This document shows, in pieces, positions 6,550 to 11,328 of a DNA stretch of 64,000 nt. A program made the position numbers and the translations under genes. The notes beneath the pieces were generated by a model that worked only from the letters and a program-made list of their open reading frames with translations, was not told the origin of the DNA and made no database searches. The DNA lies in contig MERU01000011.1 of assembly GCA_001770725.1 (NCBI GenBank), positions 1 through 64,000 on the forward strand, written 5' to 3'. Position 1 is the first letter of the stretch; each line of letters opens with the position of its first letter. The stretch is from Burkholderiales bacterium RIFCSPHIGHO2_01_FULL_63_240. Its GTDB lineage: Bacteria > Pseudomonadota > Gammaproteobacteria > Burkholderiales > Burkholderiaceae_C.

Positions 6550-7554
6550 ATGACCAGTTCGGCACTTGTTTGGATCGAGTTCATTGCCTGCATGGCGTTG
6601 ATCGGCGTGGCAGGCTCACGCTTGATTCGCTACGGGGACGCGATCGCGGAATTGGCCGGACTGTCCCGCAGTTGGGTCGGGCTGATCCTGGTCGCCACAG
6701 TCACCTCCTTGCCCGAGCTGGTCACGGGTTTGAGCGCCGTCACCGTCGCGCAGGCCCCCGACATCGCCGTGGGCGACGCGCTGGGCAGCGCCGTGTTCAA
6801 CCTCACCATTCTGGCGTTTGTCGATGTGTTCTACCGCAAAGAGTCGGTCTACGCCATTGCCAGCCGTGGGCATGTGCTGTCAGCCAGTTTGGGCGTCATG
6901 TTGTTGACGGCCGCGGCCTTGATCCTGACGTTGAGCACGCAAAAGAGCATGCCGAGCCTGGGACACATCAGTGTGGGCAGCGTGGTGTTGATGGGCCTGT
7001 ACACCTTGGCCATGCGGCTCATCTATGTGAATGAGCAGCGTCACCATCAAGCCGCCGCCGCGACAGCGAGCAGCCTGAGCCTCAAGTCAGCCCTCATGGG
7101 CTACGCAATGGCAGCGGTGGTGATCGTCGGCAGCGGCATCTGGCTGCCGCTGCTGGGGGTGGAATTGGCGCGCATCATGGGGTGGTCCAACTCGTTCGTA
7201 GGCACCTTGTTCGTGGCCATGGCCACGTCCGTGCCTGAAGTGGCCACCACGGTGGCAGCATTGAGGATCGGCGCGGTGGACCTGGCGATCGGCAACCTGC
7301 TGGGCAGCAATCTGTTTGACGTGCTCATCCTGGCGGTCGATGATGTGGCCTACCGGGCGGGGCCGCTTTACGAGCTGGTCTCGCCGCTCCACACCGTGTC
7401 GGCCTTGACGGCGGCCACGATGAGTGGGGCGGTCGTGGTGGCCTTGGTCTTTCGACCTGCGTCGCGTGTCCTGCGTCTGGGCAGTTGGGCCAGCGTTGTG
7501 CTGCTGACGCTGTATTTGCTGAACGCGTTTGTGCAGTTCTGGCATGGCCGCTGA
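6550..7554 (+). CDS. CaCA-family sodium/calcium exchanger-like membrane protein
   Basis: Predicted inner-membrane cation/Ca2+ antiporter of about 334 residues with some ten hydrophobic segments. Both hallmark alpha-repeats are present: VGLILVATVTSLPELVTGLSA followed by GDALGSAVFNL in the first half, and VGTLFVAMATSVPEVATTV followed by GNLLGSNLFDV in the second. The inverted duplication carries the conserved acidic residues of the TSLPE/TSVPE motifs. I chose the ATG at 6550, which begins directly at the first helix; an in-frame ATG at 6508 would add 14 residues. The promoter of the next transcription unit lies across its stop codon. Confidence 0.85.
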   Translation: MTSSALVWIEFIACMALIGVAGSRLIRYGDAIAELAGLSRSWVGLILVATVTSLPELVTGLSAVTVAQAPDIAVGDALGSAVFNLTILAFVDVFYRKESVYAIASRGHVLSASLGVMLLTAAALILTLSTQKSMPSLGHISVGSVVLMGLYTLAMRLIYVNEQRHHQAAAATASSLSLKSALMGYAMAAVVIVGSGIWLPLLGVELARIMGWSNSFVGTLFVAMATSVPEVATTVAALRIGAVDLAIGNLLGSNLFDVLILAVDDVAYRAGPLYELVSPLHTVSALTAATMSGAVVVALVFRPASRVLRLGSWASVVLLTLYLLNAFVQFWHGR

Positions 7555-7580
7555 CAGGCGCAAACAGCACCGCCTATAAT
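7551..7580 (+). promoter_or_regulatory. Sigma70-type promoter of the leader ORF-sulP-usp unit
   Basis: CTGACA at 7551-7556 and a consensus TATAAT at 7575-7580, separated by 18 bases. The predicted transcription start falls about 7 bases downstream, that is at or next to the ATG at 7587 of a short upstream reading frame. Confidence 0.65.
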
Positions 7581-7586
7581 TTCTGC

Positions 7587-7682
7587 ATGCTCTTGCCCAG
7601 CCCACACGCGCAGACTGCACTGGAGTGCACCCCGGTGGGGCAACTGGCGCGCGGCTATTTCTTCTCGGTCACACCGCCCTGA
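7587..7682 (+). CDS. Short, probably leaderless, upstream ORF (31-aa leader peptide) before sulP
   Basis: A 31-codon frame starting MLLPSPHAQ and ending GYFFSVTPP followed directly by TGA. Its ATG lies at the predicted transcription start, so it would be translated without a 5' untranslated region. The aromatic run and the Pro-Pro-stop ending are features known to slow ribosomes in arrest peptides. The stop codon lies in the loop of a hairpin formed by 7674-7678 and 7686-7690, and a second hairpin follows at 7695-7713. A cis-regulatory leader for the sulfate-type transporter downstream is an inference; conservation of the C-terminus in relatives would be the key test. Confidence 0.5.
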
Positions 7683-7713
7683 GTCGGCGGGCCCGGCATG
7701 CGGGATGCATGCC
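7674..7713 (+). promoter_or_regulatory. Two hairpins at the leader ORF stop, upstream of sulP
   Basis: Hairpin one pairs CCGCC (7674-7678) with GGCGG (7686-7690), with the leader stop codon in the loop. Hairpin two pairs GGCATGC (7695-7701) with GCATGCC (7707-7713), loop GGGAT. There is no following T-run, so intrinsic termination is not obvious. A stalled or terminating ribosome at the stop would melt hairpin one. Confidence 0.45.
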
Positions 7714-7790
7714 GACGCCGAGCACCTTTCCTCTGAGTTTTCAGCCTGGCCGCATGCTGCGCCCCGGCACGTTTCCCTATTGATTCCCTT

Positions 7791-9275
7791 ATGACCATCT
7801 CATTGCGCGAGCAGTGGCTGGGCAACATCCGAGGCGACCTGCTCGCAGGTCTCGTCGTTGCCCTGGCCCTCATTCCCGAAGCCATCGCCTTTTCCATCAT
7901 CGCGGGCGTCGACCCCAAGGTGGGGCTGTACGCCTCCTTCAGCATCTCCGTCATCATCGCCATCGCCGGTGGACGACCCGGCATGATCTCGGCCGCCACC
8001 GGCGCCATGGCCCTGCTGATGGTGACCCTGGTCAAGGACCATGGTTTGCAGTACCTGCTGGCCGCCACCGTGCTCACGGGCGTCTTCCAGATCATCGCGG
8101 GCCTGTTCAAGCTGGGCAACCTGATGCGATTCGTGTCGCGTTCGGTGGTCACGGGCTTTGTCAACGCCCTGGCCATTCTGATCTTCCTGGCGCAACTGCC
8201 CGAGTTGACCAATGTGACCTGGCATGTGTACGCCATGACGGCGGCCGGTCTGGCCATCATCTATGGCTTCCCGTATCTGCCGGTGGTGGGCAAGGCCGTG
8301 CCTTCGCCCCTGGTGTGCATCGTGGTGCTGACCGGGGTGGCCATGGCCCTGGGCCTGGACATCCGCAATGTGGGCGACATGGGTGAGCTGCCTGACAGCC
8401 TGCCCATCTTTTTGCTGCCCGATGTGCCCTTGACCTTGGAAACGCTGCAGATCATTGCGCCGTACTCCCTGACCCTGGCCGTGGTGGGACTGCTGGAATC
8501 GATGATGACGGCCTCCATCGTGGACGACCTGACCGACACGACCAGCGACAAGAGCCGTGAATGCGTGGGGCAGGGCCTGGCCAACATCGGCACCGGTTTC
8601 ATCGGCGGCATGGCCGGTTGCGCCATGATCGGGCAGTCGGTCATCAACGTGAAGTCCGGTGGGCGCGGGCGTTTGTCCACCTTCATGGCGGGCATCTTCC
8701 TGCTCATCATGGTGGTGTTCCTGGGGCCGTGGGTGAGCCAGATTCCCATGGCTGCCCTGGTGGCCGTGATGATCATGGTCAGCATCGGCACCTTCAGCTG
8801 GGACTCCCTGCGCAAGCTGCGTGAGCACCCGCCCAGCTCCTCCGTGGTGATGTTGGTCACCGTGGTCGTCACCGTGTCCACCCACGATCTGGCCAAGGGC
8901 GTGTTCGCCGGCGTGCTGCTCAGTGCCGTGTTCTTTGCCAACAAGGTCGGTCGCCTGATGCAGGTGAAGTCGCAAGTCCAAGACGACGGTCAGACGCGGG
9001 TCTACACCGTCACCGGTCAGGTGTTCTTCTCGTCGGCCGATCGCTTTGTCGACAGCTTCGATTTCAAGGAGGCGGTGCGCCAGGTGCGCATCGACGTCAG
9101 CCGCGCGCATTTCTGGGACATCACGGCCGTGAGCGCTCTGGACAAGGTGGTGCTCAAGTTCCGACGCGAGGGGGCCCAGGTTGAGGTGATGGGCCTGAAT
9201 GAGGCCAGCAAGACGATGGTGGACCGCTTTGGTCTGCACGACAAAGACGGCGCCGAATTGCCCTTGGGCCACTGA
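7791..9275 (+). CDS. SulP-family inorganic anion transporter with STAS domain
   Basis: Predicted sulfate/bicarbonate-type anion transporter of the inner membrane, 494 residues. The N-terminus shows the Sulfate_transp pattern: [36 protein letters not shown], then [16 protein letters not shown], with about 11-12 hydrophobic helices to residue ~390. Residues ~400-490 form a C-terminal STAS domain ([20 protein letters not shown]... [15 protein letters not shown]). No clear Shine-Dalgarno precedes the ATG, which fits control by the leader region. A universal stress protein gene follows in the same direction. Confidence 0.92.
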
Positions 9276-10936: not shown

Positions 10937-11328
10937 CACACAGAAAGCAAGCTGCTCGGTCGCCGAAGCAACTGCCATGTCGCTTGAAGGCTGATTGCGG
11001 ACACAACGGATCGTACCTGTCAACGTCTGCTCCAACCTGAAGCAGACATAGGACAACAAACGGAGATCTGTAACGGGAGGGGTGGTTCACTCGCCAAGCC
11101 TGCCGGGCTGGTGATACAGTTCCAGGCGTGGGGATAAGAGCGGCCTCCCCGTCCATCAAGACGCTTGGCGTCCAAGTGCAGCTTCTGACCTTGGGTTTCG
11201 CCCAGGTAGGAGTTCGTCTTGTTGATGCCATTTCCCCTCAACCGATTCAACATCGGTGAATTCAGGCCCATTGCGGCCGCCTCCGCCCTCTCTTCGCCGC
11301 GCAGCACCTCCCATGCCGAGGGGCAGCC
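10937..11328. other. Intergenic stretch without recognisable gene
   Basis: About 390 bases between the antitoxin-like gene and chrA. Competing short frames on both strands have no recognisable protein features. The chrA promoter is expected here but I could not place it. Confidence 0.45.

Follow-up and report, generated by a model that had tools for sequence, protein, structure and literature searches.

The stretch of DNA considered here (the window) comprises 64,000 nucleotides of contig MERU01000011.1 from Burkholderiales bacterium RIFCSPHIGHO2_01_FULL_63_240. Within it, a gene for a SulP-type anion transporter is preceded by a Na/Ca-exchanger-type gene and followed by a gene for a universal stress protein, and a short upstream open reading frame (uORF) with its own promoter lies ahead of sulP. 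The features of this region are as follows.

7551-7580, + strand: sigma-70-type promoter, CTGACA (7551-7556), 18 nt, TATAAT (7575-7580), from its consensus match (11/12)
7587-7682, + strand: uORF of 31 codons, leaderless by promoter spacing, from reading of the frame and its conservation
7644-7682, + strand: conserved C-terminal tail codons through the stop, a putative arrest motif acting with the ribosome at the stop codon, from 56 non-redundant loci
7664-7722, + strand: three-way junction, stem 7664-7669/7717-7722 with hairpins 7674-7690 and 7694-7714, from folding against shuffles
7744-7768, + strand: weak hairpin ahead of sulP, with unpaired, pyrimidine-rich sequence after it, from folding
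7791-9275, + strand: sulP, the putative target gene, encoding a STAS-domain anion transporter of the SLC26/SulP family, from domain and structure-relative searches

The coordinates and counts that the original prediction gave for promoter, frame and hairpins were correct on recomputation. The promoter, which overlaps the end of the exchanger-type gene, is the sole promoter-like site in 7440-7860 (shuffled sequences hold 0.1 on average), and the ATG of the uORF at 7587 lies 6 nt downstream of its -10 box; the frame is closed by a TGA at 7680-7682. The ATG of sulP at 7791 is the earliest start that its frame allows and, as had been claimed, it lacks a recognizable ribosome-binding site, having no Shine-Dalgarno sequence (SD). 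A 29-codon frame at 7705-7794 (+), whose TGA overlaps the sulP ATG (ATGA), offers possible translational coupling. In its own genome, a DNA search with the leader returned no second copy. Among solved structures the best relative of the SulP protein, at E 4.8e-185, is 5DA0 (annotation ‘Sulphate transporter’), presumably SLC26Dg of Deinococcus geothermalis, a fumarate transporter; 6KI1, presumably BicA, lags far behind (1e-34). Against the NCBIfam SulP model the protein scores 303.8 bits, under the cut-off of 380.45. Elsewhere in the window, positions 11129-11182 (+) match the chrB-b RNA (RF03086) with 43 bits, against a cut-off of 36.5.

The uORF belongs to a family that is present in dozens of Burkholderiales-type bacteria. 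A search of GTDB genomes with a DNA pattern encoding RG[YH]FxxVTPP-stop returned 85 stretches, 80 of which were analysed as loci; near-duplicates (e.g. L082/L087 and L139/L143) were removed in the non-redundant sets of 56-60 loci. The names of 77 of the 80 are those of groups that we take to be Betaproteobacteria, the others being L132, L139 and L145. L132 (Emcibacter) overlaps a 432-aa frame and was taken as a chance match, and L114 is doubtful. L139 (a ‘Sphingobium’ MAG) and L143 (Zoogloea oleivorans) have an identical leader, probably through MAG contamination.

The conserved tail reads P-V-x-[YF]-[RP]-G-[SA]-x-[LM]-[PA]-R-G-[YH]-F-x-[SA]-V-T-P-P-stop, with LPRGYFCSVTPP as the version seen, for example, in Polaromonas or Massilia. 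The search pattern fixed Val, Thr, Pro and Pro as amino acids and left their third bases free, and in the 56 non-redundant loci all four synonyms occur at each of these positions (Val 22/20/7/7, Thr 21/18/12/5, the two Pro 38/11/4/3 and 29/13/11/3). Positions outside the pattern are also kept: L or M at -12 in 56/56 loci, P or A at -11 in 55/56, G at -15 in 49/56, R or P at -16 in 53/56 and Y or F at -17 in 47/56. The N-terminal half of the peptide (its first ~10 residues) varies freely. Two genomes of the same genus, whose SulP proteins are 85% identical, carry the uORF at the same place with the peptides MLLPCQSALLTLECSPVGALALGHFRAVAPP and MLLPCQTALLTLECSPVSRLALGHFRAVAPP and with differing stop codons. 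The C-terminus of the uORF is selected as protein while synonymous change is free, which is the outcome that the original prediction had proposed to look for among relatives and which speaks in its favour. Termination specific to RF2 was rejected as an explanation, since the 80 loci end in TGA (36), TAA (27) and TAG (17).

The selection bias of such a pattern is lessened by a search that starts from SulP and makes no use of the uORF, which was then sought within 450 nt upstream by a matching rule that favoured Pro-Pro but did not require it. This found the uORF upstream of 16 of 44 orthologues at ≥66% identity (14 of 42 without L003 and L005, the first sightings of the family) and of none of eight at 57-61%; the set of 44 does not include the partial matches G425 and G304 (72-75% identity), and the eight are a minor part of the matches at 57-61%. 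All 16 uORFs found in this way end in Pro-Pro-stop, as do the 56 pattern loci, where the pattern sets it, and the tails now include variants beyond the reach of the DNA pattern (GFFRGVSPP, GFFCNVTPP, GYFCTLTPP, GHFHSVSPP and GHFRAVAPP). The remaining 28 of the 44 orthologues have no such uORF within 450 nt, so the uORF is not essential for the SulP transporter. Its presence follows the SulP tree: across 103 tips (some species twice), 67 of them with the uORF, presence changes 7 times, against a shuffled mean of 29.9 and minimum of 23. Two close SulP orthologues, L004 and L204, have no intact tail; by eye, L204, whose SulP is close to the Polaromonas group, has a degenerate uORF that has kept SVTPP-stop and lost RGYF.

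With an HMM of three peptides and E values up to 10, matches were mostly due to chance, the tail being found in 13 of 20 places inspected and absent in 7; one of these seven (L076) ends in RGHFRAV-stop. With an HMM of 41 peptides, at least 4 of 399 genomes of the order gave matches, and at least 17 of 299 genomes of the family did so at E ≤0.01, at least 14 of these reaching the C-terminus; the counts are lower bounds, at most 20-27 candidates having been scored per genome. Among the matches listed for peptide strings and topics in open-licence PMC papers, judged on title and start of the abstract, no earlier description of the uORF was found.

The promoter arrangement of the window recurs among its relatives. 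In 40 of 59 non-redundant loci a start codon (ATG in 33, GTG in 7) stands 31 (31 loci), 30 (8) or 29 (1) codons before the stop and is preceded by a TANNNT box that ends 6 nt (31) or 7 nt (9) upstream, while any other gap from 0 to 14 nt occurs in at most 2 loci. The box is TACAAT, TAGAAT or TAAAAT in 36 of the 40; a conserved -35 element was not detected in these loci by consensus score (2.55 vs 2.63 in the control), although that of the window is a good one. The claim that the frame is leaderless is borne out in so far as the -10 box is placed for a start at the ATG both in the window (6 nt) and in these relatives (6-7 nt), and from promoter spacing the uORF is, as far as this can be read, leaderless by design. 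A second group (Massilia, Noviherbaspirillum, Denitromonas and others), whose frames run to 44-51 codons, makes up most of the 19 remaining loci. By eye, the -35 element reads TTGAC in most members of this group, and CAAAAT, CACAAT or similar stands 6-9 nt before the ATG, which suggests that this group, too, is about leaderless; L107, L110 and L139 fit this layout poorly by eye. In promoters of longer uORFs (L103, L125, L133, L146, L154 and others), a palindrome-like TTGCANTGCAAAAT-like sequence or TTGTGCAATGCACAAT recurs at the -10 box by eye and is possibly an operator.

A fixed length combined with an unconstrained N-terminus is what one would expect if the tail of the chain is read within the ribosome tunnel. 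So short a chain would not protrude far from the exit, and this speaks against sensing of a pulling force as in MifM or SecM.

The uORF goes with sulP. A SulP gene is the next gene in 71 of the 80 loci (those of L112, L118 and L153 were missed by a regular expression and recognized on inspection), at a distance of 91-187 nt in the 68 loci measured, a few of whose start assignments are doubtful. The nine others are L093, L127, L140, L152, L161, L101, L115, L130 and L132, some of which have an identifiable gene of another kind in this place. Specifically, a Bax1-I gene follows in L093, assigned by Pfam, and in L127, assigned by 45% identity to that of L093 over 111 aa (Pfam had no match for a 104-aa piece of L127). 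An AT3 acyltransferase follows the same tail in three genomes (G333/L140, G249/L223 and G148/L227, the contig of L227 beginning inside the uORF). A Polaromonas locus, L152, has an MBOAT gene, and L161 shares its upstream gene with L152, its DNA ending too early for the downstream gene to be scored. By eye, L101 has a 66-aa membrane-like frame and L115 transposase-like frames, and the DNA of L130 does not extend downstream of the uORF. At G333:C49:22774 a uORF tail also stands before a 137-aa frame that looks membrane-like by eye and has no Pfam match.

SulP, AT3, MBOAT and Bax1-I are all multi-pass inner-membrane families. As the same tail stands before acyltransferase and Bax1-I genes, a signal common to these targets is likelier than sulfate alone; these targets, together with 5DA0, presumably a fumarate transporter, as closest solved relative, speak against a purely sulfate-specific reading. 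It is possible, if short of probable, that the family is a portable cassette, i.e. a leaderless uORF with a putative arrest tail and a promoter of its own, ~31 (or 44-51) codons in length, placed before unrelated inner-membrane envelope genes that would share one translation-borne signal, such as leaderless 70S initiation, termination or the state of the membrane.

The RNA structure of the leader was compared with shuffled sequences. Both hairpins of the original prediction are present in the window: the TGA of the uORF sits in the 7-nt loop of the hairpin CCGCC/GGCGG at 7674-7690, and a second hairpin of 8 bp follows at 7694-7714. Together with their enclosing stem they form the three-way junction of 7664-7722 (-30.9 kcal/mol, z -1.96), which 5 of 200 shuffles equal, and the entire leader folds slightly better than its shuffles (z -1.14; 27/200). 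The stop codon in a hairpin loop was rejected as a conserved device, however, since it is found in 20 of 60 loci against 23.1 expected from shuffles, so that this part of the earlier claim does not carry over from the window to the family. The hairpin at 7744-7768 is no better than shuffles in the window (z -0.03), and a hairpin near this position recurs in loci whose sulP has no SD. Intrinsic termination before sulP was likewise rejected: the single terminator call falls inside the upstream gene and none in the window leader, and the hairpins before sulP are, by eye, not followed by a consistent run of T.

More specific pairing was found between the end of the uORF and the start of sulP. In an alignment of 11 Oxalobacteraceae leaders, RNAalifold, unprompted, paired bases +5 to +11 past the uORF stop with the SD of sulP. 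The alignment holds 11 of the group's 12 loci, in rows that are related to each other; L136, L112, L137 and L153 were left out, and the best SD partner lies at +33 in L136 and at +108 in L137. In this helix 90.8% of the cells are paired, against 49-65% in slid controls, and its covariation score is reached by 10 of 500 shuffles. Three pairs are changed on both sides (including U-A to C-G, in three rows), a number that 16 of 500 shuffles reach and that the structure slid by -1 also has, and the number of pair types is not above that of shuffles (454/500). These values suggest an SD-masking helix at the end of the uORF in the Oxalobacteraceae, with moderate covariation. Since the bases after the stop pair with the SD, a ribosome held at Pro-Pro-stop would unmask the SD of sulP. 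In the group of Comamonas, Paracidovorax, Rhodoferax and Alcaligenes, the Thr-Pro-Pro codons themselves (A[CT]C[AC]CCGCCC-like) face an SD of the form GGCGGT or GGCGGGGT in five of six leaders (not in L119). Judging from their positions, both partners of the SD would be covered by a ribosome whose A site is occupied by the stop codon.

Across all 23 loci of the SD type, the best partner of the SD begins between -12 and +6 of the stop in 7 (2.3 expected), at -13 in 3, at -58 to -56 inside the uORF in 6 and elsewhere in 7; with only 7 of 23 near the stop, this is support for unmasking rather than proof. Complementarity to the region of the sulP start (-25 to +3) peaks 0 to +20 past the stop (mean z -0.53, se 0.15, n=59), and is weak there when taken against -45 to -10 (mean z -0.18). 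A second peak, at -40 to -20 of the stop (mean z -0.49; -0.70 against -45 to -10), is left unexplained by the unmasking model; in Polaromonas it is seen as pairing of the RG codons with the hairpin before the sulP start. The sulP starts of L086, L088 and L142 are wrong or doubtful in the scans for SD, hairpins and complementarity, L142 being absent from the last of these.

An SD is lacking before sulP in 43 of 60 non-redundant leaders, including that of the window (42 when the start of L086 is corrected to an earlier ATG, which has an SD). Therefore, SD unmasking cannot be the general output, and a single mechanism of this kind for all loci was rejected. With the starts of L088 and L142 corrected for the profile of composition and pairing, the 43 SD-less leaders are on average rich in pyrimidines and little paired from -56 to -38 before sulP (Y 0.71-0.76, G 0.12-0.16), are paired from about -33 to -12 and have a gap rich in T. 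In these leaders the sulP start may depend on S1-aided initiation or on Rho control, both being possible.

Taken as a whole, the uORF is real, conserved, in all likelihood translated, and regulatory by position. We consider it probable that it is a regulatory leader peptide that controls sulP through nascent-peptide arrest, in the form of slow termination. Judging from promoter spacing, transcription would start at the AUG of the uORF, so that 70S ribosomes would initiate right at the 5′ end of the transcript. The tail ...[LM][PA]RG[YH]FxSVTPP would then slow or arrest the ribosome once the stop codon has entered the A site, as its residue pattern and the Pro-stop arrest peptides tested by others lead one to expect. 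A ribosome footprint extends ~10 nt beyond the end of the uORF, so a parked ribosome would cover that end together with ~10 nt beyond it and keep this RNA from pairing with the region of the sulP start, allowing sulP to be translated; with quick termination, the RNA would refold and sulP would stay low. The partner in this pairing would lie just after the stop in the Oxalobacteraceae and, as judged by sequence, in the Thr-Pro-Pro codons themselves in the Comamonas/Paracidovorax/Alcaligenes group. Candidate modulators of the arrest include (i) a small molecule, (ii) release-factor or EF-P capacity, (iii) the mode of initiation and (iv) the state of the membrane. Both the arrest and its direction (arrest leading to more SulP) are what we infer from this arrangement. 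The translation-sensing attenuator originally proposed thus keeps its protein-conserved C-terminus, its leaderless promoter and its association with sulP, while a working role of the hairpin at the stop is not supported.

The ribosome on the uORF could instead decide Rho termination between the uORF and sulP, as in CruR, rather than access to the sulP start. The pyrimidine-rich, G-poor stretch at -56 to -38 of the 43 SD-less leaders is a possible Rho loading site, in excerpts of the respective papers Bordetella CruR blocks Rho by a C-terminal RAPP stall (PMC9426467), and occlusion of the ribosome-binding site is coupled to Rho in toiL (PMC12121999). With 91-187 nt between uORF and sulP, however, this stretch is much too distant to be reached by a ribosome that stands at the uORF stop, and Rho control would leave the SD pairing of the Oxalobacteraceae unneeded. 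These points make this explanation rather unlikely, if one to be kept in mind. The same stretch, moreover, could be used by ribosomal protein S1.

Two further explanations place the function elsewhere than in the ribosome on the uORF. That the C-terminal 20 residues are kept as protein across many species would also be expected of a functional small protein acting in trans, its place before sulP reflecting operon structure only; but conservation extends to the total length and not to the N-terminal half, the conserved tail ends precisely at the stop with Pro-Pro, and the uORF keeps its 91-187 nt from the target in 68 loci and stands before unrelated membrane-protein genes as well, which makes such a product improbable. 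Still less probable, and to be given very little weight, is an RNA aptamer (riboswitch) as the sensor with an accidental or secondary open frame. It would be in keeping with the sul1 RNA (of the Rfam type cis-regulatory, riboswitch) at 3 of 20 uORF-less SulP loci scanned, yet the window leader reaches no Rfam cut-off, that of sul1 (RF03058) included, third codon positions vary freely while the amino acids stay, and the leader past the stop differs between groups by eye. Arrest of the ribosome at the tail of the uORF remains our preferred reading.

Some of the orthologous SulP genes without the uORF carry other leaders. The sul1 RNA lies directly before SulP in L007 (1346-1401), L183 (3065-3118) and L215 (3071-3124). 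Seven uORF-less loci (L171, L192, L195, L178, L212, L213 and L177) share CGGAGT...CC[CT]-[GT]TG-TA[AG] about 200-215 nt before sulP, which reads as an SD-like GGAG ahead of a start codon with a stop immediately after it, i.e. a candidate start-stop element; L180, L181 and L009 have ATG-TAG or ATG-TAA at a similar spot, and L176 is also similar. Eight of these loci (L171, L178, L177, L213, L212, L176, L180 and L181) were scanned without an Rfam match for the element. One SulP clade thus has several layouts of cis-control: this uORF, the sul1 RNA and the candidate start-stop element.

Most known arrest peptides act in protein export, antibiotic resistance or amino-acid metabolism. The present family from Betaproteobacteria, with its putative arrest, is leaderless, fixed in length and free in its N-terminus, and the genes behind it include those of anion transporters and envelope acyltransferases. 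Because leaderless frames take a different route of initiation, the device may sense the state of both initiation and termination, and the 31-codon uORF makes sensing by a C-terminal Pro-Pro-stop tail directly testable.

Several known systems resemble the uORF in part. TnaC is a short leader that ends in Pro-stop, with a Trp and an Asp conserved ahead of this Pro. It shares the Pro-stop end with the uORF, which has Pro-Pro-stop; unlike TnaC, the uORF has neither Trp nor Asp as the leading residue at any of its last 31 positions, uses all three stop codons and is leaderless. In TnaC the ribosome stalls on tryptophan (PMC8429421). The sul1 RNA (RF03058) resembles the uORF as a cis-regulatory element directly before orthologous SulP genes, and differs in being an RNA element found on loci that lack the uORF; no match to sul1 occurs in the window.

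Other uORFs whose last residue is Pro, namely NSP-stop and NAP-stop of secA/secDF, are known to arrest the ribosome while the stop codon occupies the A site (excerpt of PMC10987492). As described there, these Pro-stop uORFs have in common with the present one a short frame, a conserved C-terminal motif containing Pro and a patchy distribution. In contrast to them, the present uORF carries the tail LPRGYFxSVTPP-stop, with putative arrest, in ~31 leaderless codons before SulP or acyltransferase genes, not sec or yidC. Of the motifs listed in that excerpt, RAPP, RGPP, RAGP, HAPP and QAPP are absent near the C-terminus of the family, which reads R-G-Y-F-x-S-V-T-P-P, and no equal to this tail was found among tested arrest tails in the literature searched.

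CruR, the copper-responsive system of Bordetella, is likewise from Burkholderiales, with a C-terminal Pro-Pro motif and a place before a transporter gene, whereas it has 145 residues and predicted export, contains a CXXC motif and carries RAPP close to its C-terminus, with no resemblance by eye (excerpt of PMC9426467). Finally, in the toiL leader of E. coli topAI, stalling on the uORF alters pairing around the ribosome-binding site of the next gene (excerpt of PMC12121999), and this stall-dependent RNA pairing is what the model proposed here has in common with it; antibiotics stall ribosomes at several positions in toiL, whereas the present uORF has one conserved tail at its stop.
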